Shown piece after piece: positions 26,413 through 49,881 of a stretch of 64,000 nt of DNA (positions within the stretch are counted from its first letter, which is position 1; every line of letters starts with the position of its first letter). The position numbers and the translations under genes were made by a program. Under the pieces are notes generated by a model. That model did no database searches. It was not told the origin of the DNA and saw only the letters and a program-made list of their open reading frames with translations. The stretch is from the NCBI GenBank assembly GCA_017462125.1, contig JAFTRQ010000203.1, positions 1 to 64,000 on the forward strand, written 5' to 3'. This DNA is from Clostridia bacterium (GTDB lineage Bacteria; Bacillota_A; Clostridia; Oscillospirales; CAG-272).

Positions 26413-26439
26413 ATCTCCCCTCGCCGCGCGAGGGGAGAT
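26413..26439 (-). terminator. terminator after SBP paralog 1
   Basis: ATCTCCCCTCGC-cgc-GCGAGGGGAGAT, a perfect 12-bp stem, lies 6 bp after the stop at 26446 on the minus strand. Confidence 0.8.
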
Positions 26440-26445
26440 GAGATA

Positions 26446-27933
26446 TTACGGGAGCTTGGAGGCAAGTGTCATCAATTTTTTCAGCTTCTTGTTTACGGTA
26501 GATTCCTTGCTGGCAATGAAGGATCCAATGTTTTGTGTGCTGTTTTCAAAGGTTAAATAAGGAACCACGTAGAGGATCTGCGTATCGGTCATAGAGCTGT
26601 AATAGGTTTGGGCGATATCGGAGCAAAGTCCATCCCAAACGATCTCAAGCATCTTCTGGTCGATAGGAGAGTCGGCAACCTGCTTTCCGAGAAGCTTATT
26701 ATAAAATGCGTTGTTGACCTCGGCACTGTAGAAGGTCATCATTTCCAGCGTGTCGCCGATCAATGCAGGATCTCTCATATAGGAGGGAACACAAAGGTAA
26801 CCTCCCCACTGAAGTGAACGGTAGCCAACGTCCTTCTGTGCTTCTTCATACATAGGATAGGGAAGAACACCGAAGTTGATATCATAATTCAAATAACCGG
26901 GCAGATGGTTGGTGGGAGAGAGGGAAAGAAGTGCCTTGCCGGCATAGAAGTTGACGTCGTTTCCGGATCTCATTTTCCAAAACCAAGCGCAATCGGATTT
27001 TACCAGATTGCCGATCTTTTCAATGACATCGGTGGTTTTTGCCTTATTTACTTCATTGAATACCGATAACTCGTAGTCACCTGCGGCGTTTATTTCGATG
27101 ATATTGATATTGCTGGAATGCAAAAATCCGCAGAATGCGATATCGTGCAGACCAACGATGCCGAATGTGTCGTCCTTGGTCTTGCCGTCGCTGGTTTCAT
27201 CAACGTATACCATATTGGCAATAGAGATCATCTGATCAAGAGTCCAATGGTAGTTTTCAACCATTTCATATACGGATTCTTCCATTGAATCCTCATACTT
27301 TGCCATCATATCCTTGTTAAAGGCAACGACGTGCGTGTAGAGAATATTGAAATCGCTAAATCCAAGGTACATACGGTCGTTGATAGAGATGCTTTCCATC
27401 ACGCTGGAATTCCAGTAATCTGCATTCAGATTAAGTCCTTCGATATTCTTGAAGTCGGTCAGATAGTTTTCTGTTACGAAGCCATCGATTCCGTGATATA
27501 CGTGAGTCAGAAGCGTGTCGACAGAGCCGTCCTTGTTCTTGACCGCGGTTTTAAAGGGCTCAATGTAGCTGCTGGAATTTCCTACGGGAGTGGCGAGAAT
27601 TTCGACGCCGAGATAATCCTTGACCTTCACCTGACGGTTGTAGATTGCCTGAGAGAGAACGTCGTTGCTGCTCTCCTCAACCCAATAAAAATCTATGGGG
27701 TTGGAATCGGTATGAATCGTGATGAAGAAGGAATCGTTATAGTCGTTTTTCTTTATGTCAGGGAAAAACGTGGTTTCAAGTTCTGTTTTGGCTTCTGTCG
27801 AAGTGTCTACCGTTGTCGCCTCGGATGATTCCTGCACGGTTTCCTGCGTGTCGCTGTTGTCACAAGCGACAAAGCAAGAGAGAACTATAAGAAGAGCGAG
27901 AATCAAGGAGATAATTTTCAAATATGCTTTCAT
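26446..27933 (-). CDS. solute-binding lipoprotein, array paralog 1
   Basis: A 495-residue exported lipoprotein with lipidated C24 (in CFVACDN), a Ser/Thr/Glu-rich linker to about residue 55, then an extracellular family-1 solute-binding fold. Fold landmarks are FYWVEESSNDVLSQAIY, LNADYWNSSV, LGFSDFNI, VVAFNKDMM, YHWTLDQM, DDTFGIVG and SLQWGGYLCVPSY. Carbohydrate-specific ABC receptors share the ADYW, fNK and WTLD segments. It has its own promoter and terminator; no permease or ATPase gene is nearby. It is one of seven paralogs here and most like paralog 3 (29865-31355). The ligand is unknown, probably a sugar. Confidence 0.88.
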   Translation of the reverse strand: MKAYLKIISLILALLIVLSCFVACDNSDTQETVQESSEATTVDTSTEAKTELETTFFPDIKKNDYNDSFFITIHTDSNPIDFYWVEESSNDVLSQAIYNRQVKVKDYLGVEILATPVGNSSSYIEPFKTAVKNKDGSVDTLLTHVYHGIDGFVTENYLTDFKNIEGLNLNADYWNSSVMESISINDRMYLGFSDFNILYTHVVAFNKDMMAKYEDSMEESVYEMVENYHWTLDQMISIANMVYVDETSDGKTKDDTFGIVGLHDIAFCGFLHSSNINIIEINAAGDYELSVFNEVNKAKTTDVIEKIGNLVKSDCAWFWKMRSGNDVNFYAGKALLSLSPTNHLPGYLNYDINFGVLPYPMYEEAQKDVGYRSLQWGGYLCVPSYMRDPALIGDTLEMMTFYSAEVNNAFYNKLLGKQVADSPIDQKMLEIVWDGLCSDIAQTYYSSMTDTQILYVVPYLTFENSTQNIGSFIASKESTVNKKLKKLMTLASKLP

Positions 27934-27969
27934 ACTGTTTCCCTTTCTGTAATTGATATTAACATTTAT

Positions 27970-27998
27970 ATTATATCAAAGTATTTGCGGCTTGTCAA
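27970..27998 (-). promoter_or_regulatory. consensus promoter of SBP paralog 1
   Basis: TTGACA (27993-27998), a 17-nt spacer and TATAAT (27970-27975) on the minus strand, about 37 nt before the start codon. Confidence 0.88.
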
Positions 27999-28042
27999 GA
28001 AAAATAAAGTTGAAGATCAGTTTTTTGCCTCGCATATCAAAA

Positions 28043-28072
28043 AGCACCCCTCCGCCAAAGCGAAGGGATGCG
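28043..28072 (-). terminator. terminator after SBP paralog 2
   Basis: A GC-rich stem (GCACCCCTCCGC with GCGAAGGGATGC, two mismatches), followed on the minus strand by a T run, sits just after the stop at 28079. Confidence 0.7.
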
Positions 28073-28078
28073 AATTGA

Positions 28079-29563
28079 TTATTTACCCATTTTATCAAGA
28101 AGCGTAAAGAATTTATCGATCTGCTTGTTTACAGATTTTTCAATACGTGCCACAAAGGAGGCAATGTTTTCCGTAGCGTCGGGGAATGTTGTGTAGGGAA
28201 TGATATGGAATACCTGTGTATCCATATAGATGCTGTAGAAGGTCTGTGTGAAGTCTGTACCGATACCGTCCCAAACGATCTCAAGCATTCTGGTATCGTC
28301 GGGAGTGTCAGATGCCTGCTTACCAAGGATCTTCTCGTAGAAGGTGGTGTTAACGTCCTTGCTGTAGAAAGACATTACCTCAAGTGTGTCGCCGACCATA
28401 GTGGGCTGCTCAACGTAAGAGGGGATGCAGAGGTAACCGCCCCACTGAAGGGTACGGTAGCCAACGTCCTTCTGATTTTCATCGTACATAGGATAGGGAA
28501 GAACTCCAAAGCTGAGGTCCTGTGTGGAGTAATAGGGAAGCTGATATGTGGAGCAGAGAGTCATCAGCACGCGTTGGCTGGGCAGATTGAGAGTCTCGGA
28601 ACTGTTATACTTCCAGAACCAAGCGCAATTGGATTTTGCAAGATTCTGAAGCTTTTCAACGATATCGGTGGTTTTTGCTCTGTTCACGTCATTGTAGATT
28701 GCAAGCTGGTATTTGCCCTCTTCATTGGGGGCGATCATCTGGATATCAAATGCCAGAGGGAAGCTGCTGAAGGGCGCGTTATGCTCGGCGCTGATGCCAA
28801 AGGTATCGTCAAGTGTCTTGCCGTCACCTGTTGCGTCGATGTAAACGAGATTTGCGAGGCTGATCATCTTGTCGAGGGTCCAATGATAGTTGTCTACCAT
28901 CTCGTAGACCGATTCATCGAGAGCGTCATCATATTTGTCAAGGATGTCCTTGTTGAAGGCAACTACGAATGCACGCAGAATATTGAAGTCACTCATACCA
29001 AGGTAGTAATGGCCGTTGATCGCAACGTCCTCCATGATCTGGGTGTACCAATAGTCTGCCGTTATGTTGATCTGAGCGTAATCGTTGTAGTCTGCAAGAT
29101 AGTTTCCGGTAATAAAGCCGTCGATTCCGTGGTACTGATGCGTCATCAAGGCATCTACGGAGCCGTCCTTGTTCTTGATTGCGTTTTTGAAGGGCTCGGC
29201 ATATTCGAGAGATGCAATGGTCTCTGTAGCGATCAGATTTACGCCAAGATATTCACGCACCTTCTGCTGACGGGCATAGATCGCCTGGGACATCGCGTCG
29301 TTGGAGCTCTCCTCTACCCAATGGTATTCCATAAAGCTGGCGGTGGGCATAATGGAGAGGAAAAAATCGGTATTGTAATCTGTGCGCTCGATTGCGGGGA
29401 CATATTCGGTCTCCGCTTCCGTTGCAGCGGCGGTGTCCGTGCTTTCGGAGACAGGAGCGCTTGTGTCAATTGTTTCTTCCTCGCCACTGTCGCAGGAAGC
29501 AAAGCAGGAGATCAGCATGATCAAAGCAAGAAAGAGGGATATGAGCTTGAAATGTTTTTTCAT
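28079..29563 (-). CDS. solute-binding lipoprotein, array paralog 2
   Basis: A 494-residue lipoprotein (C24 in CFASCDS) with the family frame: YHWVEESSNDAMSQAIY, ITADYWYTQI, LGMSDFNI, YHWTLDKM, DDTFGIS and TLQWGGYLCIPSY. It differs from paralogs 1 and 3 in the middle (PFSSFPLAFDIQMI replaces CGFLH), suggesting different ligand specificity. The start is set at ATG 29563; a GTG at 29575 directly after AAAGGTA is possible. It is monocistronic with a perfect promoter. Codon choice looks adapted to high expression. Confidence 0.87.
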   Translation of the reverse strand: MKKHFKLISLFLALIMLISCFASCDSGEEETIDTSAPVSESTDTAAATEAETEYVPAIERTDYNTDFFLSIMPTASFMEYHWVEESSNDAMSQAIYARQQKVREYLGVNLIATETIASLEYAEPFKNAIKNKDGSVDALMTHQYHGIDGFITGNYLADYNDYAQINITADYWYTQIMEDVAINGHYYLGMSDFNILRAFVVAFNKDILDKYDDALDESVYEMVDNYHWTLDKMISLANLVYIDATGDGKTLDDTFGISAEHNAPFSSFPLAFDIQMIAPNEEGKYQLAIYNDVNRAKTTDIVEKLQNLAKSNCAWFWKYNSSETLNLPSQRVLMTLCSTYQLPYYSTQDLSFGVLPYPMYDENQKDVGYRTLQWGGYLCIPSYVEQPTMVGDTLEVMSFYSKDVNTTFYEKILGKQASDTPDDTRMLEIVWDGIGTDFTQTFYSIYMDTQVFHIIPYTTFPDATENIASFVARIEKSVNKQIDKFFTLLDKMGK

Positions 29564-29599
29564 GAATTTCAACACTACCTTTCATAATAATATAAATAA

Positions 29600-29628
29600 A
29601 TTATAACACGACTTAATTGCCGTGTCAA
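29600..29628 (-). promoter_or_regulatory. consensus promoter of SBP paralog 2
   Basis: TTGACA (29623-29628), a 17-nt spacer and TATAAT (29600-29605) on the minus strand. Confidence 0.88.
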
Positions 29629-29789
29629 GCACGAGAAGGTAAAAATAAACAATTTTACAGCACAAAAAACAGATCAAATTGTAGAAAAGGGGCTGATTCG
29701 GTCAGATTCGGAAGGTGTGAGGTTGTTTTCAACGGCGCACACAGGGGCAAGTCGGAGAGCGAAGCGCGACCGGAAACTGCAAAAAAGAG

Positions 29790-29820
29790 GAAAACCGCCG
29801 AGTATTTTTCGGCGGTTTTC
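29790..29820 (-). terminator. terminator after SBP paralog 3
   Basis: GAAAACCGCCGA and TCGGCGGTTTTC flank a short loop 44 bp after the stop at 29865 on the minus strand. The stem has A/T flanks on both sides. Confidence 0.75.
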
Positions 29821-29864
29821 AATGCTGGGCTTTTGTTCTTCGCTTTATGAGCCGTCACGTGGGA

Positions 29865-31355
29865 TCATTGCAGCTTGGATACCAGCTGAATAAATTTGTT
29901 GATTTTTTTGTTGATAGTGGATTCCTTGCTGGCGATGAAGGACGCAATATTGGGAGTTGTATCCTCATACGTGAGATAGGGAACGATATACAAGATCTGC
30001 GTGTCGAGGATCGCGCTGTAATAGGACTGTGCGAAGTCTGTGCAAAGGCTGTCCCATACGATCTCAAGCATTCTTCTGTCATCGGGAGAGTCGGATGCTT
30101 GCTTGCCCAGCAGCTTGTCGTAGAATGCGTTGTTCACGTCCGCGCTGAAGAAGGAGAGCATTTCCAGCGTGTCACCAACAAGCTCGGGGCTGGTGACGTA
30201 GGAGGGAATACAGATGTAGCCGCCCCACTGAAGGGAACGGTAGCCCGTGTCCTTTTGATTTTCATCATACATCGGATAGGGAAGAACACCGAAGCTGATA
30301 TCGTAGTTGGGGTAGGAGGGGAGCATTCCCTTGGTGTCGGAAAGCGCGAAAAGAACCTTACCCGAGACGAAGCTGACGGTGTCGCTTGCCTGATATTTCC
30401 AGAACCATGCGCAGTCAGACTTGGCAAGGTTGTGGATCTTTTCGATAATGTCGGTGGTTTTTGCCTTGTTGACGTCGCTGTATGCGGAAAGGATATATTC
30501 GCCCTTTTCATCGGGCTCGATAATGTTTATATTGCAAGCGTGCAAGAATCCGCAAAAGGCGATATCCTGACATCCGATGATTCCGAATGTGTCGTCGATC
30601 GTTTGGCCGTCGCTACCCTCGTCGATGTAGACAAGGTTGGCAATGCTGATCATCTGATCCAGCGTCCAGCTGTAGTTGTCGACCATGCTGTAAACCGATT
30701 CGCCAAGCGCGTCTCCGTATTTGTCCATCATATCCTTGTTGAAGGCGATCACAAAGGTCCACAGAATGTTGAAATCGCTTTTGCCAAGATACATCCTGCC
30801 GTTTATGGAGGCTTCCTCCATAATGTCAAGATCCCAATAATCCGCGCTCAGATTGATCTGGGAGTAGTCGTTAAAATCTGCAAGATAGTTTCCTGAAATA
30901 AAGCCGTCGATTCCGTGATATACGTGGCTTAAAAGCGTATCAACGGAGCCGTCCTTGTTTTTGACTGCGTTTTTAAAGGGATCAACGTAATTTCTGCTTG
31001 TTTCGGTCACGGTTCCGAGGATCTCCACGCCAAGGTAATCGTAGATCCTTTGCTGACGGTCATAGATCGCTTGCGACATAACGTCGTTTTCGCTTTCCTC
31101 GACCCAGTGATATTTAACGGGGTTGTTATCGGGATGGATAGACAGGAAAAACTCGGAATCATAGTTTTTTTCTTCTATCGCGGGGGTGTATTCGGTCTCG
31201 GCTTCCACGGTCACGGTATCTGTGGCATCCGTGCCTTCGGAGATCGGCACATTGGTTTCAACCGTTTGCTCCTCGGCGCTGTCGCAGGAGACAACACAGG
31301 AGATCAGCATAATCAAAGCGAGAGTCAAGGAAATGAGCTTCAAATATTTTTTCAT
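29865..31355 (-). CDS. solute-binding lipoprotein, array paralog 3
   Basis: A 496-residue lipoprotein (C24 in CVVSCDS) with the array fold: YHWVEESENDVMSQAIY, LSADYWDLDI, LGKSDFNI, YSWTLDQM, DDTFGIIG, CGFLHACNI and SLQWGGYICIPSY. The central CGFLH segment and DCAWFWK agree with paralog 1, so these two probably share a ligand type. The ATG at 31355 is used, though a GTG four codons upstream lies right behind AAAGGTA. It is monocistronic. Confidence 0.88.
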   Translation of the reverse strand: MKKYLKLISLTLALIMLISCVVSCDSAEEQTVETNVPISEGTDATDTVTVEAETEYTPAIEEKNYDSEFFLSIHPDNNPVKYHWVEESENDVMSQAIYDRQQRIYDYLGVEILGTVTETSRNYVDPFKNAVKNKDGSVDTLLSHVYHGIDGFISGNYLADFNDYSQINLSADYWDLDIMEEASINGRMYLGKSDFNILWTFVIAFNKDMMDKYGDALGESVYSMVDNYSWTLDQMISIANLVYIDEGSDGQTIDDTFGIIGCQDIAFCGFLHACNINIIEPDEKGEYILSAYSDVNKAKTTDIIEKIHNLAKSDCAWFWKYQASDTVSFVSGKVLFALSDTKGMLPSYPNYDISFGVLPYPMYDENQKDTGYRSLQWGGYICIPSYVTSPELVGDTLEMLSFFSADVNNAFYDKLLGKQASDSPDDRRMLEIVWDSLCTDFAQSYYSAILDTQILYIVPYLTYEDTTPNIASFIASKESTINKKINKFIQLVSKLQ

Positions 31356-31390
31356 GAGCCTTAACACTACCTTTCATTGAGATTAATTTG

Positions 31391-31420
31391 ATTATAGCAT
31401 AGCGTAAAGGATCTTGTCAA
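31391..31420 (-). promoter_or_regulatory. promoter of SBP paralog 3
   Basis: TTGACA (31415-31420), an 18-nt spacer and TATAAT (31391-31396) on the minus strand. Confidence 0.85.
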
Positions 31421-31465
31421 GCACTATTTTGCCGAAAACGTGACGCACGGCTATCATAACAGAGA

Positions 31466-31499
31466 CCCCCTCTCCGCGTTTTGCGAGGCGAAGAGGGGG
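31466..31499 (-). terminator. terminator after SBP paralog 4
   Basis: CCCCCTCT (31466-31473) pairs with AGAGGGGG (31492-31499), with a further CGC/GCG step inside, just after the stop at 31506. Confidence 0.75.
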
Positions 31500-31505
31500 A
31501 ATGCG

Positions 31506-32996
31506 TTATTTTTTCAGCTTTTCCACCGAGAGTATGAATTTCTCTATCTTTTTATTGAGCGAGGATTCCTTGGCGGCTACAAAGGATGCAACGCTTTGCG
31601 TAGCGTTCTCGGGGGTTAATTTGGGCATCAGGTGGAAGATCTCGGTATCGATGAACGCGCCGTAGAAGGTCTGGGCGAAGTCGGTTCCTATACCTTCCCA
31701 AACGATCTCAAGCATTCTGGAATCATCGGGTACGTCGGCGACCTGCTTGCCAAGAAGCTTTTCATAGAAGGTAACGTTGACGTCCTTACTGAAGAAGGAG
31801 AGCACCTCAAGGGTATCACCCACCATTTCGGGATTGCTGACGTAAGAGGGGATACAGGTGAATCCGCCGAACTGAAGGGAACGGTAGCCCACGTCCTTTT
31901 GCTCTTCGTCGTACATCGGATAAGGAAGAACACCGAAGCTGATGTCATAGTTGAGATAATAGGGAAGTCTGTTGGTGTTGGACAGGATCATCAACGATCT
32001 GCCGGATTGGAAATCAACGGCGTCGGGGCTTGCCCAAGGCCAAAACCAGGCGCTATCGGATTTGGAGAGCTCGTGAAGCTTTTCGACGATGGCTGTGGTC
32101 TTTTCCTTGTTGATCTCGTTGAATACCGAGAGGACGTAGTCGCCTTCCTCGTTAGGAGAGATCATACTGACGTTGCCTGCCAGCAAGAATCCGCATACTG
32201 CGGCATCCTGCTCACCAATAATGCCGAAGGTGTCGTCAATGGTCTGACCGTTGCCTGTTTCATCGACGTATACGAGATTTGCCAGGCTGATCATCCGGTC
32301 CAGAGTCCATGTGTAATTGTCCACCATCTCATAGACCGATTGCTCCATTGCGTCATCGTACTTATCCATCATCTCCTTATTGAAAAGGATCACGTAGGTG
32401 CATAGAATATTGAAATCGCTCTTTCCAAGGAACATGGATCCGCTGATCTCCACGGCCTCCATAATGTCCCGATTCCAATAATCTGCGTTCAGATTGATCT
32501 GCGTATAGTCGTTATAATCAGCCACGTAGTTTCCGGAAATAAAGGCGTCAATACCGTGATAATGATGGGTCAGAACGGTATCCACCGAGCCGTCCTTGTT
32601 TTTTACGGCGATCTTGAAGGGATCGATGTAGGTCTTGCTGGTTCCAACCTTTGTGCCGACGATCTTGACACCGAGATATTCCTCGACCAATTGCTGTCTG
32701 TTGTAGATCGCTTGAGACAAGGCATCGTTGTCGCTTTCCTCAACCCAATGGTATTCAAAATAGTTGGAGTCGGGCTGTACGGAAAGGTAGAATTCAGCGT
32801 TGTAATCGGTTTTTGCAACGTCGGGTGCATATTCGGTCTCGGTTTCCGACGCTTCGGTAGCGGGCGCTTCGGTGCCGACGGTTGCAGACTCGCCCGAGGC
32901 AGTAGTATCATCCTCGCTTCCGTCACAGGCCGTGAAGCATGGGAGGAGCATCAGTATTGTGAGGAGAACAGAGAGGACTTTGACATACGTTTTCAT
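31506..32996 (-). CDS. solute-binding lipoprotein, array paralog 4
   Basis: A 496-residue lipoprotein (C24 in CFTACDG) with the family landmarks YHWVEESDNDALSQAIY, LNADYWNRDI, LGKSDFNI, YTWTLDRM, DDTFGIIG and SLQFGGFTCIPSY. The central segment reads CGFLLAGNVSMI and the radical-pair region DSAWFWPW, both different from paralogs 1-3. ATG 32996 is chosen; a TTG at 33008 is the alternative. It has its own promoter and terminator. Confidence 0.88.
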   Translation of the reverse strand: MKTYVKVLSVLLTILMLLPCFTACDGSEDDTTASGESATVGTEAPATEASETETEYAPDVAKTDYNAEFYLSVQPDSNYFEYHWVEESDNDALSQAIYNRQQLVEEYLGVKIVGTKVGTSKTYIDPFKIAVKNKDGSVDTVLTHHYHGIDAFISGNYVADYNDYTQINLNADYWNRDIMEAVEISGSMFLGKSDFNILCTYVILFNKEMMDKYDDAMEQSVYEMVDNYTWTLDRMISLANLVYVDETGNGQTIDDTFGIIGEQDAAVCGFLLAGNVSMISPNEEGDYVLSVFNEINKEKTTAIVEKLHELSKSDSAWFWPWASPDAVDFQSGRSLMILSNTNRLPYYLNYDISFGVLPYPMYDEEQKDVGYRSLQFGGFTCIPSYVSNPEMVGDTLEVLSFFSKDVNVTFYEKLLGKQVADVPDDSRMLEIVWEGIGTDFAQTFYGAFIDTEIFHLMPKLTPENATQSVASFVAAKESSLNKKIEKFILSVEKLKK

Positions 32997-33032
32997 ACTA
33001 TTTTCCAACTTTCATATATATTTGATAATACG

Positions 33033-33061
33033 ATTATAACACGAAAAAAACATACTGTCAA
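33033..33061 (-). promoter_or_regulatory. consensus promoter of SBP paralog 4
   Basis: TTGACA (33056-33061), a 17-nt spacer and TATAAT (33033-33038) on the minus strand. Confidence 0.88.
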
Positions 33062-33148
33062 GTGTCGGATGCCAACGTTGCCATTCTTTCGCTTCTCGCG
33101 GTACTCTGCGTTTGTACCGTTATGAAGACGGTTATGAGAAGGGTACGC

Positions 33149-34633
33149 TTATTTGCCATAGTTTTTTTCAACCCTTTTTTCGAACTTTTCCAGAGTACTG
33201 TTGCCCGTGCGTTCTGCGCCGGCTATATAGGAGGCGAGATTCTGTCCGGATTCGGGCCAGGTGACCGTTGGCAGGATAAACAGGATCCTTGCCGCTTCAT
33301 CCGAGAAGGTCTGACCGAAGTCGGTGCAAACGCTTTCCCAAATAATGTCCAGCATCTGCTTGTCGTCCGGAACGTCTGCGACCTGCTTGCCGAGCATCTT
33401 CTCGTAAAAGGTGATCTTTACGTCGTCGCTGTAAAAGGCAAGCACCTCAAGCGTTTCACCTACCATAAGCTCATTTTCAAGATAGGTGGGGATGCAGAGG
33501 TAACCGCCCCATTGGAGGGATTGGTAGCCGACGGTATCCTTTTGTGCCTCGTCCCACATAGGATAGGGGAGTACGCCGAAGGAAATATCATAATCAAGGA
33601 AGCTTACAAGTCCGTAGGTTGATTCCAGGAAGAGAAGCACGCGGCCCGAGGTAAAGGGAACGGATGTGACAGACGTGGTCATATAATCCAGATAGGCATT
33701 GTCAGACGTTGTCAGTGCGGTCAGCATATCCACAAGCGCGGAGGTCTTCTCCTTGTTCAGCTCGTTCATTACCGAGATCTTATGGGCGCCGGATTCATCA
33801 ACGTCGACCAGCTTGATACCGCAAGCCTGCATAAAGCCGATCCACGGTACCCATTGACGGCCCGCGAGACCGAAGGTGTCGTCCACCGTTTTGCCGTCGG
33901 AGGTAGCGTCGATATACACAAGGTTAACGATCTCGATCATTTTGTCAAGAGTCCAGGTGTTGTTTCGAACACGGTCGTAAAGAGGAACGTCGATGGCATC
34001 GGCATATTGATCCATCATGGTTTTGTTAAAGGCTACGACGTTTGTGTAAAGAATGTTAAAGTCGCTGAAGCCGAGAAAATGGTGATCGGCGATCGCCAGG
34101 GAATCCATAAAGTCAAGATTCCAATACGAGCTGTTCAGATCAATTCCCGACATATCATCAAAGGAGCGGAGATATCCCTCGGAAACAATGCCTGCAACAC
34201 CCGTGTTGGAGTGGGAGAGCAGCGTATCAACCGAGCCGTCCTTGTTTTTGACTGCGGTTTTGAAGGGTGTGACGTAGGTCATATGGTTGAGACCGGCGCC
34301 AACGTTTATGATTTCAACGCCCAACCACTCGTACAGCTTTTGCTGACGCGCAAAGACTGCCTCGCTCATCGCGCTGTTGTCGCTTTCCTCGACCCAATAG
34401 TAATCAGGCGGATTGACGTCAGACAGAATCGACAGATAAAATTCAGCGCCGTAGTCCTTTTTTTCAACCGCACCGGGAGTTGCCTCGGTCACAGCCTCGG
34501 TTTGCGTCTCGCTGACGGTCTCGAGCGCCGAATCGGTCTCGGTTGCAGTCTCCTTGCCGCTGTCGCAGGCCGCAAGAGTTGGGATCACCAGGGCAATTGC
34601 CAATAGAAACGAAATAAGCTTAATGTTTTTCAT
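33149..34633 (-). CDS. solute-binding lipoprotein, array paralog 5
   Basis: A 494-residue lipoprotein (C23 in TLAACDSG) and the most divergent member of the first block. YYWVEESDNSAMSEAVF, LNSSYWNLDF, LGFSDFNI, NTWTLDKM, DDTFGLAG and SLQWGGYLCIPTY keep the family frame. The middle (VPWIGFMQACGIKLV) resembles paralogs 6 and 7 more than 1-4. The start is ATG 34633 behind AAAGGT; the open frame continues upstream only by chance. It is the first gene after the AraC regulator on this strand, but it has a separate promoter. No clear terminator was seen. Confidence 0.87.
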   Translation of the reverse strand: MKNIKLISFLLAIALVIPTLAACDSGKETATETDSALETVSETQTEAVTEATPGAVEKKDYGAEFYLSILSDVNPPDYYWVEESDNSAMSEAVFARQQKLYEWLGVEIINVGAGLNHMTYVTPFKTAVKNKDGSVDTLLSHSNTGVAGIVSEGYLRSFDDMSGIDLNSSYWNLDFMDSLAIADHHFLGFSDFNILYTNVVAFNKTMMDQYADAIDVPLYDRVRNNTWTLDKMIEIVNLVYIDATSDGKTVDDTFGLAGRQWVPWIGFMQACGIKLVDVDESGAHKISVMNELNKEKTSALVDMLTALTTSDNAYLDYMTTSVTSVPFTSGRVLLFLESTYGLVSFLDYDISFGVLPYPMWDEAQKDTVGYQSLQWGGYLCIPTYLENELMVGETLEVLAFYSDDVKITFYEKMLGKQVADVPDDKQMLDIIWESVCTDFGQTFSDEAARILFILPTVTWPESGQNLASYIAGAERTGNSTLEKFEKRVEKNYGK

Positions 34634-34676
34634 TTTGTGTAACCTTTCTGTGTCGAAAATAGAATTGAAGAAATAT

Positions 34677-34705
34677 ATTGTACACGACGGAGATTCCGTT
34701 GTAAA
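34677..34705 (-). promoter_or_regulatory. promoter of SBP paralog 5
   Basis: TTTACA (34700-34705), a 17-nt spacer and TACAAT (34677-34682) on the minus strand. It lies between the AraC stop and the gene, so paralog 5 is not strictly in the AraC operon. Confidence 0.75.
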
Positions 34706-34728
34706 TAAAAATTTATAGGACATTAAAA

Positions 34729-35505
34729 TCAGGGATTGATCCGCTTCTTGTATTCGGATGGCGTGATCCCAACACTTTTTTTGAAAACACGGCAAAAATA
34801 GGAGACCGAAGAGAATCCGCAACGCTCGGCAACGTCCACAGGAGAGAGGTATTCTGCCGTCAGCAGCTCCTTGGCGCGGGCGATGCGGCAATCGGTAATG
34901 AACTTTGCGGGAGAAACTCCCATTACCGATTTAAAGAGCTTTCGGAAATAGACCTCACTCATTTCCGCGCGAACGGCAAGGCTGTATATGCTTGGCGGGT
35001 TCTGCGGATCTTTCGATATCGTCGTAATTGCCTCATCTATCTTTTCCCGCAAGCCGTTTGGCAGATAACTGTTTTTTTGAGACAGAATCAGATCGTTGTA
35101 AATATGATAGAGCAGAGCGGTTTTGTATGTAAGGGTCGTTCTGGTGCTGTCCTTCAGCGTTTGGAAAAACAGCCCTTCGGTTTTATCGGTGTTTTTCAGC
35201 TTGAAAACGTTGCTGGCACGTGCGCCCTCGCAATCAAAGAAAAAATTGATACAGACAAAATCATATCTTTCAAGCACGTCCATTTTGTAGACCGCGCCGT
35301 GAGCAAGGTAGAGCAGATCTCCTGCCGAAGCCTTGAAGCTTCGGTTATCATCCCGCAGAGTATATTTGCAAGAGCCCCCGAGAATGTAGACGAAGGCATC
35401 GCAGTACCTTGGGCGACAATAAGGAATCTTTCGTGGGGCAATATAGTCCTGGTGTACTCCCTCGAAGCATTTGACGTAAAGCTCATTTTTTGAAATGTCA
35501 ATCAA
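34729..35505 (-). CDS. AraC-family regulator divergent from the glycyl-radical enzyme
   Basis: A 258-residue regulator with an N-terminal cupin-like sensor (about 1-120; YRLPR-type region, GDLLYLAHG) and a C-terminal AraC double HTH (about 155-258, including VAERCGFSSVSYFCRVFKKSVG). The start is the TTG at 35505, since no in-frame ATG lies near. The start codon falls in one arm of a perfect 12-bp inverted repeat that also overlaps the promoter. It diverges from the glycyl-radical enzyme and its activase and likely controls them, perhaps also the SBP genes. The inducer is unknown. Confidence 0.85.
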   Translation of the reverse strand: MIDISKNELYVKCFEGVHQDYIAPRKIPYCRPRYCDAFVYILGGSCKYTLRDDNRSFKASAGDLLYLAHGAVYKMDVLERYDFVCINFFFDCEGARASNVFKLKNTDKTEGLFFQTLKDSTRTTLTYKTALLYHIYNDLILSQKNSYLPNGLREKIDEAITTISKDPQNPPSIYSLAVRAEMSEVYFRKLFKSVMGVSPAKFITDCRIARAKELLTAEYLSPVDVAERCGFSSVSYFCRVFKKSVGITPSEYKKRINP

Positions 35506-35558
35506 AGAAAATCACCGCCCTTTTCTTTGATTTTAACACTTTTTCCAGAAAAAATCAA
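35500..35558 (-). promoter_or_regulatory. promoter and overlapping palindrome of the second AraC gene
   Basis: On the minus strand, TTGATT (35553-35558) and TAAAAT (35530-35535) have a 17-nt spacer. Overlapping the -10, the transcription start and the TTG codon is a perfect inverted repeat, AATCAAAGAAAA (35500-35511) with TTTTCTTTGATT (35521-35532). It may be an autoregulatory operator or a translation-blocking hairpin. Confidence 0.6.
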
Positions 35559-35609
35559 GGATTTTGAAAAAATAGTGTTTCGAAAAGTGCAATAATATTG
35601 TTTTCTGAC

Positions 35610-35638
35610 TTTACAATCTGCCCTTTGTGTCGTATAAT
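35610..35638 (+). promoter_or_regulatory. promoter of the glycyl-radical enzyme operon
   Basis: TTTACA (35610-35615), a 17-nt spacer and TATAAT (35633-35638) lie 27 nt before the start codon. They leave about 50 bp to the divergent AraC promoter for regulator binding. Confidence 0.82.
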
Positions 35639-35665
35639 GGAGTCAGAAAGCCTTGGAGGTGCGTT

Positions 35666-37777
35666 ATGAATATTATCAACGAGCGCAACAGCGATTCTTA
35701 CAGAATCCCCTTTGAAAAAGCGAAGCAGATGATCGATACGCGCGGCGAGAAGAGCCACGCGAGGAATGATGCGGATATTATTATGATGATTCTCGATCAC
35801 GCCGAGCCGTATTACGAGACTTACGAGGAGGTCTGCGGCAGATTCCCTCATGAAAATATGATGCTTCGCATGACCTGGCGCCGTCAAGGTATGATGAATC
35901 ACAGATTTATGGGTGACCCCAATATCGTCAAGCATCAGGCAGGCTGTGACGTTCTTGCTTACGACGGTTGGTGCGACTACGGACACACCTCGCCCGGTTG
36001 GGACGATCTGCTTTCCTTGGGCTTTACGGGCATTCTGAAAAGACTTGAGGATAAGCTTGAGACCGAAGGACTTGACGAGGAGCAGAGGGATTTTTATTCC
36101 TCCTGTGCCGACGTTTGGAGGGCGACCCTCGAATATATGAAAAAGAGCGCGGATGTTGCCGAGACGCTTGGCAAGGTCGAGATCGCCGAGACTCTGCGTG
36201 ATCTGACCCTTCACGCTCCTCGGACGCTTTGGGAGGCTATAACCACCGTCGTACAGTATTACGATATGCAGCAGTCTGTGGAGTGTACGCCCGTCAGAGC
36301 GCTGGCAAGAGTGGACCACCTTCTCTATCCCTTTTATAAAAAGGATATCGAAGAGGGAAGGATCACGCCCGAGATCGCGGTAGAAATGACCGACAAGTTT
36401 CTCCGTAAGCTGAACGATTTTAAGGTGCCTGCCAATATCGCTCTGGCGATCGCGGGAACGAAATATGACGGAACAAATTACGTAAACGAGTATTCATATA
36501 TATTGCTTCGCAGGCTTGTTGAATTGAAGTTGCCCTTTGTAAAGGTGCATTTCCTGTATGATACCACGCTCCCCGAGGACTTTATGCGTATCGTTTTCGA
36601 AGGTATCCGCAAAGGCTCAAACAGCTTTGTTTTCATCAGCGACAGGGCAACGAAGGCTGCGCTTGAGGGCATCGGTATTTCCCGCGAGGATGCAGATTAT
36701 TACACGGTCATCGGCTGTTACGAGACCGCGGGGTTTGAAGAGGTCCCCTGCACCTGCGCGGGCAGAGTCAATCTGGCAAAGGCGCTTGAGCTGACCCTGA
36801 CAGGCGGGTACGATATTCTGACGGGCAAGCAGGTAGACAGCTTAAAGGACAACGATTTTGCAAGCTTTGAGGAGCTTTTTGAGGCATATCTCTGCCGTGT
36901 TGACGAGTGCTGTGAGGCGGTCTTCGACCTCCTTGACACAAGAGAAGCGATGATGGCGGATTTCCATACTTCTCCATATTTTTCGGCAACCTTGAGAACG
37001 CCCCTTGAGCGCGGAAGGGATATTTACGCGTCGGGCGGAAAGTACAACAATACTTCAATCAATGCCCTTGGCGTTGCTACCGTTGCGGATTCCTTGGCGG
37101 CGATCAAGAAGCTGGTGTATGATGACAGAAAGCTGACGCTCTCCGAGCTTGTCCAGCTTTTGAAAAACAATTGGGAAGGCAACGAAATGCTTCACCAAAG
37201 GGTGAAAAAGACCTTCCCAAAATACGGAATGGGCGACTCTGCGGTCGATTCCTATGCGCGCCTATCGCTTGAGAGGCTTGCGAACAGGATCAACGGCAGA
37301 CCTAATGCTAAGGGAGGCGTTTACCGCTTTGGCTCGTTTACCGTTGATTGGAGATTCCCCTTTGGTGAAAAAACTGCAGCTTCTGCCGACGGAAGACTTG
37401 CGGGAGAGACCCTGTCCAAAAACCTGTGTGCGACGCTTGGCTGTGACCGCGAGGGTGTGACGGCGCATATCGCGTCCGCGGCAAAGCTTGGTGGTACGAT
37501 CACTCCCAACGGAAGTGTTGTTGACGTTAGCTTCCACTCATCGGCGGTCAGCGGAGAGAACGGAATGAATGCTATGATCTCCTCGCTTAAAGCATTCGTA
37601 GAGGCGGGCGGTACCGCGATACAGTATAACGTGCTCAATGCCGAGACCCTGCGTGATGCGCAAAAGCATCCGGAAAATTATCCCAATCTGCAGGTGAGAG
37701 TCTGCGGCTGGAACGCTACGTTTATAAGTCTCACCGAGAAAGAACAGAACGAATTTATCGAGCAGGCGGAGGCGTGA
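35666..37777 (+). CDS. glycyl-radical enzyme, eliminase-type, unknown substrate
   Basis: A 703-residue member of the pyruvate formate-lyase superfamily. The thiyl cysteine is C351 in IGCYETAG and is followed by E353. This Cys-x-Glu arrangement is typical of eliminase-type members (diol and hydroxyproline dehydratases, choline lyase). It is unlike the Cys-Cys of pyruvate formate-lyase itself. The C-terminal glycyl-radical loop is RVCGWNATF with G681, departing from the usual RV[SA]GY. At 703 residues it is shorter than most (about 760-850). GGAGGT precedes the ATG, and the activase follows 1 bp later. It acts in anaerobic cytoplasm. The substrate cannot be assigned; no shell proteins or dedicated downstream enzyme are present. 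Confidence 0.9.
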   Translation: MNIINERNSDSYRIPFEKAKQMIDTRGEKSHARNDADIIMMILDHAEPYYETYEEVCGRFPHENMMLRMTWRRQGMMNHRFMGDPNIVKHQAGCDVLAYDGWCDYGHTSPGWDDLLSLGFTGILKRLEDKLETEGLDEEQRDFYSSCADVWRATLEYMKKSADVAETLGKVEIAETLRDLTLHAPRTLWEAITTVVQYYDMQQSVECTPVRALARVDHLLYPFYKKDIEEGRITPEIAVEMTDKFLRKLNDFKVPANIALAIAGTKYDGTNYVNEYSYILLRRLVELKLPFVKVHFLYDTTLPEDFMRIVFEGIRKGSNSFVFISDRATKAALEGIGISREDADYYTVIGCYETAGFEEVPCTCAGRVNLAKALELTLTGGYDILTGKQVDSLKDNDFASFEELFEAYLCRVDECCEAVFDLLDTREAMMADFHTSPYFSATLRTPLERGRDIYASGGKYNNTSINALGVATVADSLAAIKKLVYDDRKLTLSELVQLLKNNWEGNEMLHQRVKKTFPKYGMGDSAVDSYARLSLERLANRINGRPNAKGGVYRFGSFTVDWRFPFGEKTAASADGRLAGETLSKNLCATLGCDREGVTAHIASAAKLGGTITPNGSVVDVSFHSSAVSGENGMNAMISSLKAFVEAGGTAIQYNVLNAETLRDAQKHPENYPNLQVRVCGWNATFISLTEKEQNEFIEQAEA

Positions 37778-37778
37778 A

Positions 37779-38672
37779 ATGAAGGGCAGAATATTTGCAA
37801 TAAAGCGATTTGCCGTGCACGACGGAGACGGCATCAGAACAACGGTCTTTTTCAAGGGCTGTCCTTTGCGTTGCGTGTGGTGTCACAATCCCGAGAGTAT
37901 TTCCTTTGCGCCCCAAGTCGCCGCTTACGCGCATAAATGCGTTGGCTGTGGCGAGTGCCTTGCCTGTCCGGAGCATGCCTGCGCGATGATCGACGGCCGA
38001 GCTGTGGTCGATCGTGAAAAATGCATTTCCTGCGGAAAATGTGCCGAAAGCTGTGTTTTCTTTGCGCGTGAGCTTTTCGGCAAGGACGTTGACGTCAACG
38101 ACTTGGCGGACGAGCTTTGCGCTGACAAAAGCTTCTTCGAAAGCAGTGGCGGCGGAGTCACCTTGTCGGGCGGAGAATGCCTGGCACAGCCCGAGTTTGC
38201 TCTTGCGCTTCTGAAAGCGTTGAAGGAAAGGGAAATTCACACCGCCGTTGATACCTGCGGCTACGTTTCGAGGCAGATCCTTGAATCGGTCATTCCCTAC
38301 GTTGACACCTTCCTGTATGATATAAAAGCCATCGATCCCGAGGTGCATAAGGCGTGCACGGGAAGGGATAATCAACGTATTCTGTCCAATTTCGACTATC
38401 TTTGCCAAAACGGATGCCGCATTGAGGTTCGCATCCCGTACGTGGTAGGCTGTAACGATGGAGAGATCGACAGGATCGGTGCTTTTCTCGCGGGCAAGCC
38501 CATCCGCAAGGTGACGGTTCTTCAATATCACGATATGGCACGTTCCAAATATGCCTCGGTAGCTATGGAGGACAGTATGCCCGAAAATCTGACCGACCGC
38601 AGGGATGTTGCGGATGCGGTCGAAAGGTTAAAGCAATTCGGCCTTCCCGCCATTTCGGGAAGTGAAGATTGA
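37779..38672 (+). CDS. glycyl-radical enzyme activase (radical SAM)
   Basis: A 297-residue activating enzyme that abstracts hydrogen from G681 of its partner. The radical-SAM cluster is C28-x3-C32-x2-C35 (GCPLRCVWCHNPE). Two extra ferredoxin-like [4Fe-4S] sites follow (C54, C57, C60, C63 and C82, C85, C88, C92), as in activases of dehydratase-type glycyl-radical enzymes. Pyruvate formate-lyase activase itself lacks this insert. The SAM-binding GGE appears in TLSGGECLAQPEF. It starts one base after the partner's stop, so the two are translationally coupled; a terminator follows. Confidence 0.93.
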   Translation: MKGRIFAIKRFAVHDGDGIRTTVFFKGCPLRCVWCHNPESISFAPQVAAYAHKCVGCGECLACPEHACAMIDGRAVVDREKCISCGKCAESCVFFARELFGKDVDVNDLADELCADKSFFESSGGGVTLSGGECLAQPEFALALLKALKEREIHTAVDTCGYVSRQILESVIPYVDTFLYDIKAIDPEVHKACTGRDNQRILSNFDYLCQNGCRIEVRIPYVVGCNDGEIDRIGAFLAGKPIRKVTVLQYHDMARSKYASVAMEDSMPENLTDRRDVADAVERLKQFGLPAISGSED

Positions 38673-38682
38673 ATACATAACA

Positions 38683-38710
38683 ATATCTCCCCGCTGTGGC
38701 GGGGAGATAT
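38683..38710 (+). terminator. terminator of the glycyl-radical operon
   Basis: ATATCTCCCCGC-tgtg-GCGGGGAGATAT, a perfect 12-bp stem followed by a T-rich tail. Confidence 0.82.
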
Positions 38711-38747
38711 TCTCTGTTTAGTTAAATTCTGATCCAGTTAAATTCCG

Positions 38748-38774
38748 AATTTCAAATGCTCCGCATTTGAAATT
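38748..38774 (-). terminator. hairpin at the stop of SBP paralog 6
   Basis: AATTTCAAATGC-tcc-GCATTTGAAATT, a perfect 12-bp stem, begins at the minus-strand stop codon of paralog 6. Confidence 0.65.
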
Positions 38775-40245
38775 AACCCAGCTTTTCAACCTCAAGAAGG
38801 AACTTTTTGATCTTCTTGTTGGAGGAGGATTCCTTGGACTTTACGTAGGAAGCAACGTTCTGAGTAGCGTTGACCCAAGTCAGCTCGGGGAGCATATAGA
38901 GCCAGCTGCCGGAAGCCTCGGCGTATGCCTGACCGAACTCAGGGCAGATGGTATCCCATACAAGCTCGAGCATCTGTCTGTCAAGGGGCATATCCGCAAC
39001 CTGCTTACCGAGAAGCTTCTCATAGAAGGTAACGTTAACGTCATCGCTGAAGTATGCGAGCATTTCTACCGTTTCACCGATCATAACGGGATTGGAGGAG
39101 TAAGAGGGAACGCAGAGGTAACCGCCCCACTGGAGATGACGGTAGCCAACGTCCTTCTGTGCTTCATCATACATAGGATAGGGAAGTACACCGAATTCTA
39201 CGTCGTAGTCGCAGAGGTTGGGAAGGCTGTTGGTAGAGATAATTCCCATAAGAGTACGTCCTGTGTTGACGTTGATAACAGGCGTATCCTCGATTCTGTA
39301 ACGGAACCAAGCATAGTCGGAAGCAACCATCTGAGAGAGCTTATCGATCAGGTCTGCGGTCTTTGCCTGATTGAGCTCGTTATAAACGACGATCTCATAT
39401 TTACCGGAGTCGCCGATGTCGATATAGTTAAGTCCGCTTGCGTGCAGGAAGCCGATGAATTCAACCCACTGAATACCTGTGATACCGAAGGTGTCGTCCG
39501 CGGTCTTACCGTCGGAGGTTGCATCGATATATACCATGCTTGCAAGGCTGATCATCTGGTCAAGGGTCCACTTGTAGTCGTTAACCAAAGTGTAAACGTC
39601 ACTCTCCAAAGCATCACCGTACTGGTCCATCATCTTCTTGTTGAAGGTGATAACGTTTGTGTAAAGGATGTTGAAGTTGTTGTTTCCGAGATACATATGG
39701 TCATTGAGAGCAAGACCTTCCATGAAGTTCATGTTCCAATAATCGTTATCAAGGTTGATCTCATCGATTGTTGTGAAGTCGCGGAGATAGTTACCGGTGA
39801 TCAGGGATTCGATGCCGGAGTGTACGTGGGAGAGCATCAGCTGGATCGAGTCGTCCTTGTTCTTGACAGCGGTCTTGAATGCTTCTGTGTAGGTCATATG
39901 GCTACCGCCCTCGGAGGCAACGATCTCAACGCCAAGATATTCACGAATCATTTCCTGACGGGCAAAGATCGACTCAGAGAGCGCGTCTCCCGAGCTTTCC
40001 TCTACCCAGTGATATTTGGTTACGTTAGAGGATTGCTGATTGTAGAGGTGGAAGGTGGTGCCGTAATCCTTCTTTGCAATGTCGGGGAAATACTCGGATT
40101 CTGTTTCCTGCACGGTCGATTCAACGGTCTGCTCGTTTTCGGCGGTTGTGGTGTTCTCCTCCTCGGCGCCATCACAAGAGACGAAGGTGGAAAGAGTAAT
40201 CACGAGTGCGAGGATGAGAGAGAGAATTCTGAAACTCTTTTTCAT
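38773..40245 (-). CDS. solute-binding lipoprotein, array paralog 6
   Basis: A 490-residue lipoprotein (C24 in TFVSCDG) with the array landmarks YHWVEESSGDALSESIF, LDNDYWNMNF, LGNNNFNI, YKWTLDQM, DDTFGITG, VEFIGFLHASGLNYI and HLQWGGYLCVPSY. It is very close to paralog 7 along the whole length and clearly a recent duplicate. Both differ from paralogs 1-4 in the ligand-cleft region (DYAWFRYRIE replaces DCAWFWK). ATG 40245 follows AAAGGAA. It has its own promoter with an about 95-nt leader. Confidence 0.89.
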   Translation of the reverse strand: MKKSFRILSLILALVITLSTFVSCDGAEEENTTTAENEQTVESTVQETESEYFPDIAKKDYGTTFHLYNQQSSNVTKYHWVEESSGDALSESIFARQEMIREYLGVEIVASEGGSHMTYTEAFKTAVKNKDDSIQLMLSHVHSGIESLITGNYLRDFTTIDEINLDNDYWNMNFMEGLALNDHMYLGNNNFNILYTNVITFNKKMMDQYGDALESDVYTLVNDYKWTLDQMISLASMVYIDATSDGKTADDTFGITGIQWVEFIGFLHASGLNYIDIGDSGKYEIVVYNELNQAKTADLIDKLSQMVASDYAWFRYRIEDTPVINVNTGRTLMGIISTNSLPNLCDYDVEFGVLPYPMYDEAQKDVGYRHLQWGGYLCVPSYSSNPVMIGETVEMLAYFSDDVNVTFYEKLLGKQVADMPLDRQMLELVWDTICPEFGQAYAEASGSWLYMLPELTWVNATQNVASYVKSKESSSNKKIKKFLLEVEKLG

Positions 40246-40289
40246 AAAATGATTCCTTTCGAAATGATTGTTATATATGAGCATAAAAT

Positions 40290-40322
40290 ATGTCTGTCTT
40301 GATGAGTGGATAGGACAGACAT
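40290..40322 (-). other. conserved leader hairpin upstream of SBP paralog 6
   Basis: ATGTCTGTC (40290-40298) and GACAGACAT (40314-40322) form a 9-bp stem. Its loop side holds GAGTGGATAGGAC, which recurs at 41998-42010 upstream of paralog 7 (plus-strand reading). It may be a regulatory leader copied with the gene. Confidence 0.45.
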
Positions 40323-40347
40323 TTTTTGCGCACTTATATTATTAAAT

Positions 40348-40376
40348 ATAATATCATAATATGCAATGCTTGTCAA
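40348..40376 (-). promoter_or_regulatory. promoter of SBP paralog 6
   Basis: TTGACA (40371-40376), a 17-nt spacer and TATTAT (40348-40353) on the minus strand. Confidence 0.8.
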
Positions 40377-40408
40377 GGGCAGATTTGTTAACTTTTATGG
40401 TGAACAAT

Positions 40409-40443
40409 ATCGGCGTGACGCTTATTTGGAGCATCACGCCGAT
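40409..40443 (-). terminator. terminator after SBP paralog 7
   Basis: ATCGGCGTGA (40409-40418) and TCACGCCGAT (40434-40443) form the stem, 23 bp after the stop at 40467. Confidence 0.75.
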
Positions 40444-40466
40444 GAATTTTGCTGTTTTGTATGCGA

Positions 40467-41939
40467 TTATCCTAATTTTTCAACCTCAAGAAGGAACTTT
40501 TTGATCTTCTTGTTGGAGGAGGATTCCTTGGATTTTACGTAGGAAGCGAGGTTCTGAGTTGCGTTGACCCAGGTCAGCTCGGGGAGCATATAGAGCCAAC
40601 TACCGGTAGCCTCGGTATAAGCCTGACCGAATTCGGGGCAGATGGTATCCCATACAAGCTCCAGCATCTGTCTGTCAAGGGGCATATCCGCAACCTGCTT
40701 ACCCAGCAGCTTTTCGTAGAAGGTGACGTTAACGTCCTCGCTGAAGAATGCGAGCATTTCAAGTGCCTCGCCAACCATCACGGGGTCTGCGGTGTAGGAG
40801 GGAACACAGAGATATCCACCCCACTGGAGATGACGGTAGCCAACGTCCTTCTGCGCTTCGTCGTACATAGGATAGGGAAGTACACCGAATTCTACGTCGT
40901 AGTCGCAGAGGTTGGGAAGGCTGTTAGTAGAAATAAGGCTCATAAGCGCGCGTCCGGTATGAAGATCAACGGTGGGAGTGCTTTCGATTCTGTAACGGAA
41001 CCAAGCGTAGTCGGATGCAACCATTTGAGAAAGCTTTTCAACAAGATCGGCGGTTTTTGCCTGATTGAGCTCGTTATAAACGACGACCTCATAGTTACCG
41101 GAATCGCCCAGACCGATATAATTCAGTCCGCTTGCCTGAAGAAATCCGATAAACTCAACCCATTGAATACCTGTAATACCGAAGGTGTCGTCCTCGGTCT
41201 TGCCGTCTGCGGTTGCATCGATATAAACCGTGCTGGCGAGATTGATCATCTTATCGAGCGTCCACTCATAATCGTTTACCATGGTGTAGACGTCTTTTTC
41301 AAGAACGTCACCGTACTGCTCCATCATTTTCTTGTTAAACGCAAGCACGTTGGTGCGGAGAATGTTGAAGTTGCTGTTGCCGAGATACATGTGGTCGTTG
41401 ATAGCAAGACCTTCCATGAAGTTCATATTCCAATAGTCGTTGTCGAGATTGACTTGATCGATTGTATTGAAGTCACGGAGGAAGTTTCCTGTAACCAGAC
41501 CCTCAATGCCGCTATGTACGTGAGAGAGCATCAGCTGTATCGAGTCATCCTTGTTCTTAACGGCTGTTTTGAAGGTTTCGGTATAGGTGGTGTGTTCGCC
41601 GACATGAGAGCAAACGATCTCCAAGCCGAGATGCTCGTAAATCTTTTCCTGACGGGCAAAGATCGCCTCGGAAAGCGCATCTCCCGAGCTTTCCTCAACC
41701 CAGTGGTATTCGGTTTTGTTGCTGTCGTGCTGAATGTAAATGTGGAAGGTAGTACCGTAATCCTTCTTTGCAATGTCGGGGAAATACTCGGTTTCTGTTT
41801 CCTGCGCGGTCGATTCAACGGTCTGCTCGTTTTCGGCGGTTGTGGTGATCTCCTCCTCGGTGCCGTCACAAGAGACGAGGGTGGAAAGAGCGATCACAAG
41901 CGCGAGAATTAGAGAGAGAATTCTGAGATTCTTTTTCAT
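40467..41939 (-). CDS. solute-binding lipoprotein, array paralog 7
   Basis: A 490-residue lipoprotein (C24 in TLVSCDG), nearly identical to paralog 6 in its second half (WVNATQNLASYVKSKESSSN). It has modest differences in the first 250 residues. Landmarks are YHWVEESSGDALSEAIF, LDNDYWNMNF, LGNSNFNI, YEWTLDKM, FGITGIQWVEFIGFLQASG and HLQWGGYLCVPSY. The ATG at 41939 follows GAAAGGAA. It is divergent from the GH35 galactosidase gene, whose promoter lies about 90 bp upstream of its own. This spatial link makes a galactoside ligand conceivable, but that is inference. Confidence 0.89.
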   Translation of the reverse strand: MKKNLRILSLILALVIALSTLVSCDGTEEEITTTAENEQTVESTAQETETEYFPDIAKKDYGTTFHIYIQHDSNKTEYHWVEESSGDALSEAIFARQEKIYEHLGLEIVCSHVGEHTTYTETFKTAVKNKDDSIQLMLSHVHSGIEGLVTGNFLRDFNTIDQVNLDNDYWNMNFMEGLAINDHMYLGNSNFNILRTNVLAFNKKMMEQYGDVLEKDVYTMVNDYEWTLDKMINLASTVYIDATADGKTEDDTFGITGIQWVEFIGFLQASGLNYIGLGDSGNYEVVVYNELNQAKTADLVEKLSQMVASDYAWFRYRIESTPTVDLHTGRALMSLISTNSLPNLCDYDVEFGVLPYPMYDEAQKDVGYRHLQWGGYLCVPSYTADPVMVGEALEMLAFFSEDVNVTFYEKLLGKQVADMPLDRQMLELVWDTICPEFGQAYTEATGSWLYMLPELTWVNATQNLASYVKSKESSSNKKIKKFLLEVEKLG

Positions 41940-42036
41940 CGATAAATTCCTTTCAAAATTATTGTTAAAATAAGAATAAAATATGCTGCTGCGGTTGAGT
42001 GGATAGGACTGACTTTTATCATTTTTTTACATTGAT

Positions 42037-42065
42037 ATCTTACCATAACGTGCAACCGTTGTCAA
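42037..42065 (-). promoter_or_regulatory. promoter of SBP paralog 7
   Basis: TTGACA (42060-42065), a 17-nt spacer and TAAGAT (42037-42042) on the minus strand. Confidence 0.75.
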
Positions 42066-49840: not shown

Positions 49841-49881
49841 ATAATCAAGGCGACGTCTTCGTTGCCCGAATTTTTATTAAA

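Follow-up and report, generated by a model that had tools for sequence, protein, structure and literature searches.

How do solute-binding receptors work when no permease is encoded beside them? For the MalE/UgpB-type receptors of ATP-binding cassette (ABC) carbohydrate transport, a permease pair in the same operon is usual, without being a defining feature. The locus considered here lies in a stretch of 64,000 nucleotides (nt) from a Clostridia bacterium (Oscillospirales, CAG-272; GCA_017462125.1, JAFTRQ010000203.1, positions 1 to 64,000), hereafter the window, in which seven minus-strand open reading frames (ORFs) between positions 26446 and 41939 encode a single family of lipoproteins (genes 1 to 7) (Table 1). 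The explanation that we favor, with a probability of about 0.5, is that many lipid-anchored receptors would feed a few shared permeases with what are presumably sugars.

Seven lipoproteins with a predicted receptor fold

A sequence-only reading of this locus had proposed seven lipoproteins of 490 to 496 amino acids (aa), of one family and on one strand. This is confirmed by the ORFs, whose ATG starts were chosen to fit the lipobox, by the C24-D25 pair that is invariant after a hydrophobic signal in all seven proteins (the Gram-positive form of the lipobox), and by pairwise identities of 47 to 63%, rising to 85% between genes 6 and 7. The seven genes do not form one unbroken block: five of them are separated from the other two by an AraC gene and by a glycyl-radical enzyme with its activase. 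The same reading set variable central segments against a conserved frame, which is roughly right, but the stretches of low conservation in the seven-protein family (about 31 to 50, 111 to 120, 161 to 170, 281 to 290, 321 to 330, and 441 to 470) are scattered and not just central.

The two-lobe binding fold on which the reading depended is present in the predicted structure of the gene 3 protein (P0001), which Foldseek found to be MalE/UgpB-like. At the level of the sequence, the Pfam models PF01547 (SBP_bac_1) and PF13416 (SBP_bac_8) matched none of the seven proteins at an E value of ≤0.1 and one at a nonsignificant 0.27, and a precomputed PF13416 match is present in some of the window-type homologues listed. 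When the seven sequences were compared with those of solved structures, the matches were chance ones alone (Rab8A, E value of about 0.1), and this line was discarded. No TctC/Bug model occurred among the Pfam matches of the seven up to an E value of 10, a level at which the HMMER filters drop many weak matches; SusD and TctC were not among the listed fold matches, which proves nothing, and SusC was not searched for. In predicted fold and size the proteins resemble the CUT1-type sugar ABC receptors (MalE, UgpB, SBP_bac_1/SBP_bac_8), and one relative likewise stands in a row with an ATPase (identified by eye) and two permeases; different from that class, the seven are not recognized by the Pfam models and have no neighboring permease. 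They are very probably ABC-type receptors, and their ligands are most likely sugars.

The absence of a permease with the array, also claimed from the sequence, holds among the 33 non-receptor window proteins scanned with Pfam (3 plus 30; some further ORFs were left unscanned), which contain no BPD_transp_1 and no ABC ATPase. The array lies well inside the window, and no permease was found on either side. Permeases flanking the array were set aside as a candidate, its neighbors being proA-like and flavin-reductase-like ORFs (by eye, unscanned), a glycoside hydrolase (GH) of family GH35, and mostly housekeeping genes.

Ancestry and divergence of the seven receptors

One alternative is that a single gene was multiplied in a recent tandem burst and that its copies differ little in function. 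Such a burst would be in keeping with the 85% identity of genes 6 and 7 and with the promoter spacing common to genes 1 to 4. It is contradicted by a quick tree of the seven and 113 other proteins, all taken from the first 120 homologues (two queries found 551 and 885). None of the seven has another of them as its closest relative in this tree: genes 1, 2, 4, 5, and 6 have close outside sisters, and genes 3 and 7 stand at unresolved forks with outside proteins. Branches with a Shimodaira-Hasegawa-like approximate likelihood ratio test (SH-aLRT) support of ≥95 force seven separate origins; with shuffled labels the mean is 6.9, which makes the scatter of the seven equal to that of labels placed by chance. 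The burst was therefore set aside as extremely improbable. The count of seven applies to the closer homologue set. A second tree, which took in more distant members, unites the window genes with three genes of close relatives (support 100/100).

The alignment of six orthogroups revealed 20 positions that are nearly fixed within orthogroups (mean of ≥90%) and take at least four residues between them, located at residues 74, 145, 182 to 199, 220, 260 to 278, 311 to 321, 349, and 447 to 463. Together, the tree and these orthogroup-specific positions support the suggestion that the family has diversified into separate receptors.

Promoter-like sites and terminator-like hairpins

The claim that each gene has its own near-perfect promoter stands for genes 1 to 4, each preceded by a perfect 12/12 TTGACA-17/18-TATAAT site with an extended −10, exactly 65 nt before the ATG, and for gene 6 (11/12). 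It is weaker for genes 5 and 7 (10/12), since 18 sites of score 10 occur in the window. Perfect sites number nine in the whole window, four of them at the array, compared with a mean of 0.0 in a Markov-1 control (20 shuffles); strong promoters are thus not unique to the array. Terminator-like hairpins lie 3′ of genes 1, 2, 3, and 6, so that a terminator of its own for most genes is just borne out (4/7), in a region where the scan found 24 hairpins versus 18.7 in shuffles.

By eye, genes 6 and 7 have long leaders (40245-40376 and 41939-42065) with a common GTCCTATCCACTCA-like stretch. In the gene 6 leader this stretch falls within an inverted repeat (TGTCTGTC...GACAGACA), which gene 7 has not retained.

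Receptors and permeases in related genomes

Four related loci were found in public genomes, from goat, sheep, and roe-deer gut and from one Oscillospiraceae metagenome-assembled genome. Each of these genomes holds three or four long members of the family, in arrays of two or three plus one single gene, and 9 to 18 matches to the permease domain PF00528; thus, the four closest relatives show no excess of receptors over permeases. These small numbers would allow each receptor a dedicated permease elsewhere in the genome, as for ordinary ABC receptors with scattered operons. We consider this unlikely, because no PF00528 match lies near the long members in any of the four genomes and because the ratio is overturned in some relatives.

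We searched 146 genomes of the family of a close relative with a profile, scoring no more than 10 candidates in each, taking an E value of ≤1e-20 as a receptor match and reading the counts as lower bounds from genomes without stated completeness. Receptors were matched in 104 genomes and in none of the other 42, so the expansion is uneven. In the relative G066 (2.8 Mb), the window profile gave 147 matches in 150 scored of 257 candidates, and a profile built from 37 of its own members gave 150 in 150 scored of 223 candidates, all with E values of ≤3e-123. The union of both amounts to at least 167 receptors, which cover 238.5 kb, or 8.5% of the genome, as 120 single genes, 16 pairs, and 5 triplets; 157 of the 167 are over 1,200 bases. 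With G029, G059, and G091 (at least 150, 138, and 133 matches, 150 scored each), four genomes reach at least 133 to 167 receptors each, in assemblies that may mix strains; two others, G047 and G001, have 9 and 4 matches. The PF00528 matches number 18 in G066 versus at least 167 receptors and 20 in G059 versus at least 138. In both relatives, receptors far outnumber their membrane partners, an orphan expansion that also speaks against dedicated permeases.

The profile does not collect every solute-binding protein (SBP), since the SBP of an operon in G001 (C17) matched it with an E value of just 3.7e-4 over residues 4 to 62. Speaking against strain mixing, the 37 members of G066 share 23 to 36% identity with the first of them; they include three close pairs in the tree. 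At an E value of ≤0.01, PF01547 matched 7 and PF13416 matched 4 of these 37; as most of the members tested lack a Pfam match, the family would be largely invisible to current annotation, and proteins of a family filling about 8% of the G066 genome are often named hypothetical among the listed homologues.

The AraC gene inside the array, and the AraC-like neighbor that the array has in relatives (by eye), could suggest receptors that act as sensors, signaling to a regulator such as the AraC protein or to membrane kinases; a report on orphan TctC receptors discusses sensing as well (PMC5994714). In three of the four closest relatives, AraC-like and GH4-like genes stand beside the array, and in the fourth (L002) the AraC-like gene is accompanied by an overlapping ORF at the place of the GH4-like gene (all by eye). 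In G066, none of the 8 AraC matches (E value of ≤1e-8) lies within 1 kb of a receptor, and PF06580 kinases are absent, other kinase families not having been searched. A sensory role thus appears very unlikely.

Permease-linked members and candidate shared permeases

The family is tied to true ABC receptors by two of the 167 G066 receptors, which have a PF00528 match no more than 2 kb away. One belongs to a row of an ATPase (by eye), a permease, the receptor, a second permease, and a second SBP (C35, L087), and is joined to an orphan in the tree (100/98). The other (C49) lies 1.7 kb from a permease, with an ORF between them and an operon unproven, and is placed among orphans (86/79). With rough control positions, which may fall inside receptors and rest mostly on approximated contig sizes (2.23 Mb in total versus 2.8, which tends to raise expected counts), PF00528 matches near receptors are if anything rarer than expected (3 of 18 within 2.5 kb versus 7.1).

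A further alternative is that the proteins bind glycans on the outside of the cell, either for adhesion or to keep substrate close to secreted enzymes, and feed no ABC permease. The excess of receptors over permeases in the expanded relatives and the strong promoter-like sites are compatible with it, as are the glycosidase-type genes beside some G066 receptors: ten hand-picked neighbors comprised two GH28, one alpha-galactosidase-like, one GH31, one GH95, two Gfo/Idh, one AP_endonuc_2, one esterase-like, and one flavin adenine dinucleotide (FAD) oxidoreductase gene. Two results oppose it, namely, that the proteins are predicted to fold like transport receptors and that the permease-linked members are not set apart from the orphans in the tree. 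Surface capture, which the sequence-only reading had raised as a sugar-capture layer, is neither favored nor contradicted outright by the data; it seems to us rather unlikely, while remaining the strongest of the alternatives considered.

In the shared-permease explanation, the seven genes would encode lipid-anchored MalE/UgpB-type receptors, most likely for different oligosaccharides or sugar derivatives. Uncoupled from permeases, each would be transcribed alone from a housekeeping-type promoter, and the loaded receptors would dock on a few carbohydrate-type ABC permease pairs encoded elsewhere. The arrangement would be extreme in some relatives, with well over 100 receptors and no more than some nine or ten permease pairs. 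Sharing would fit this ratio and the known precedents, whereas the docking and the choice of permeases are conjectural. It is also possible, at a little under even odds, that in several members of this gut-clostridial family the rule of one receptor for one permease has given way to more than 100 diverged, individually transcribed lipoproteins served by a handful of sugar permeases, possibly including an operon with two permease pairs and a DUF5696 protein.

This operon, a natural candidate for the shared permease, encodes in G002 a 997-aa SBP, two permeases, a Yip1/NHL protein, the DUF5696 protein, and two more permeases; G003 and G066 have similar rows. DUF5696 occurs in 131 of the 146 genomes and therefore does not discriminate. 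Receptors were matched in 9 of the 15 genomes without it (at least 10, 7, 10, and 8 in G077, G109, G141, and G148, respectively), and so the operon is not the sole partner; as the one shared permease it was set aside.

Several observations weigh against the sharing of permeases for sugar uptake. The DUF5696 operon has its own SBP, and the receptors in nine genomes lacking DUF5696 count here as well. The strong single-gene promoters would fit pure surface binding as well. The best Foldseek match is a dinucleotide receptor, as are 16 of the 50 VIA rows, so that the fold class also binds nonsugars. Furthermore, Gfo/Idh genes are not enriched near G066 receptors by the same rough control (10 of 54 within 1 kb versus 13.5 expected and 21 of 54 within 2.5 kb versus 20.4), and a pairing of receptors with Gfo/Idh catabolic genes was dropped.

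Three further observations were made alongside. Extra, short DUF5696-like genes in G066 (C10:4717-6024, C14:12182-13510, and C28:23970-25268; four matches of five are listed, one of them the operon copy) all lie ≤450 bases from an orphan receptor on the same strand (three of the three listed; post hoc, by hand), even though DUF5696 elsewhere belongs to a permease operon. An operon at L035 (270-15078) combines two pairs of PF00528 permeases with a Yip1/NHL protein and an 1,885-aa DUF5696 protein. In G001, two PF00528 permeases are followed by three different large lipoproteins (L044, 1999-12052), possibly the many-to-one arrangement in linked form.

Relation to known receptor families

Orphan-receptor expansions are known for the TctC/Bug family, in Rhodoplanes, Bordetella, and Cupriavidus. 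According to PMC5994714, 434 TctC receptors, a number termed unprecedented, are found in the 8.2 Mb of Rhodoplanes, and Bordetella species have 79 to 181 with at most four membrane components. The excess of orphan receptors is alike, and the density in G066 is similar or higher. TctC/Bug proteins are of another family, belonging to tripartite tricarboxylate transporters in the Gram-negative periplasm, different from the MalE/UgpB-type lipoproteins of gut clostridia. The present family may thus be an ABC-type, Gram-positive case of the same phenomenon, the surprise being its scale in some relatives.

For shared permeases there is a precedent in pneumococcus, where AliA and AliB are unlinked. 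PMC6290326 and PMC11192437 describe AmiA, AliA, and AliB as paralogous lipoprotein receptors serving one ABC permease. Different from the expansion of a whole family, these are three receptors, for peptides and of another receptor class. The glycan lipoproteins of the SusD type likewise form large sets of surface glycan-binding lipoproteins; SusD of Bacteroidota pairs with SusC in the outer membrane, and its fold differs from the two-lobe SBP fold predicted for the array. No report of this expansion in Clostridia was found in the open-access literature searched.

If permeases are shared at this scale, what these gut anaerobes can take up would depend on a repertoire of plug-in receptors, and a tally of permeases or operons would greatly underestimate their substrate range. 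The family would then be the Gram-positive counterpart of the SusCD and Bug repertoires. Its many hundreds of diverged receptors would make up a natural library obeying a single docking rule, and the reason for which some bacteria maintain orphan binding proteins by the hundreds would become directly testable.

Other features of the window

Table 1. Features in and around the receptor array, in window coordinates
Feature	Position	Strand	Evidence
Terminator-like hairpin after gene 1	26413..26439	-	Hairpin scan
Receptor lipoprotein 1, 495 aa	26446..27933	-	ORF, lipobox, family SBP fold
Promoter-like site of gene 1, 12/12, extended −10	27970..27998	-	Promoter scan
Terminator-like hairpin after gene 2	28044..28071	-	Hairpin scan
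Receptor lipoprotein 2, 494 aa	28079..29563	-	ORF, lipobox
Promoter-like site of gene 2, 12/12, extended −10	29600..29628	-	Promoter scan
Terminator-like hairpin after gene 3	29790..29820	-	Hairpin scan
Receptor lipoprotein 3, 496 aa, protein modelled (P0001)	29865..31355	-	ORF, lipobox, structure model
Promoter-like site of gene 3, 12/12, extended −10	31391..31420	-	Promoter scan
Receptor lipoprotein 4, 496 aa	31506..32996	-	ORF, lipobox
Promoter-like site of gene 4, 12/12, extended −10	33033..33061	-	Promoter scan
Receptor lipoprotein 5, 494 aa	33149..34633	-	ORF, lipobox
Promoter-like site of gene 5, 10/12	34677..34705	-	Promoter scan
AraC-family regulator (HTH_18), inside array	34729..35505	-	Pfam
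Glycyl-radical enzyme, PFL2/dehydratase type, inside array, not a receptor	35627..37777	+	Pfam, structure match
Radical S-adenosylmethionine activase of the glycyl-radical enzyme	37779..38672	+	Pfam
Two-way terminator-like hairpin between activase and gene 6	38682..38711	-	Hairpin scan
Receptor lipoprotein 6, 490 aa	38773..40245	-	ORF, lipobox
Promoter-like site of gene 6, 11/12, extended −10	40348..40376	-	Promoter scan
Receptor lipoprotein 7, 490 aa	40467..41939	-	ORF, lipobox
Promoter-like site of gene 7, 10/12, extended −10	42037..42065	-	Promoter scan
GH35 beta-galactosidase flanking array, own 12/12 promoter-like site at 42151	42231..44003	+	Pfam, promoter scan

The AraC regulator adjoins the glycyl-radical enzyme and its activase (34729-38672). 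The enzyme has 716 aa; its closest solved structure is PFL2 (2f3o, E value of 4.4e-78), and with the NCBIfam models it falls far short of the cutoffs. The transport protein found among the scanned window proteins is an energy-coupling factor (ECF) S-component at 49862-50695, and a tetrahydrofolate riboswitch precedes its gene (49881-50695). Other window genes that point to sugar-type metabolism encode a GH127-like beta-L-arabinofuranosidase and an RraA-like/enolase-superfamily pair (20566-22362 and 148-2510), and a helix-turn-helix protein at 44229-45164 contains internal near-identical repeats of the EFLPFMSENDVNRLAERV kind.

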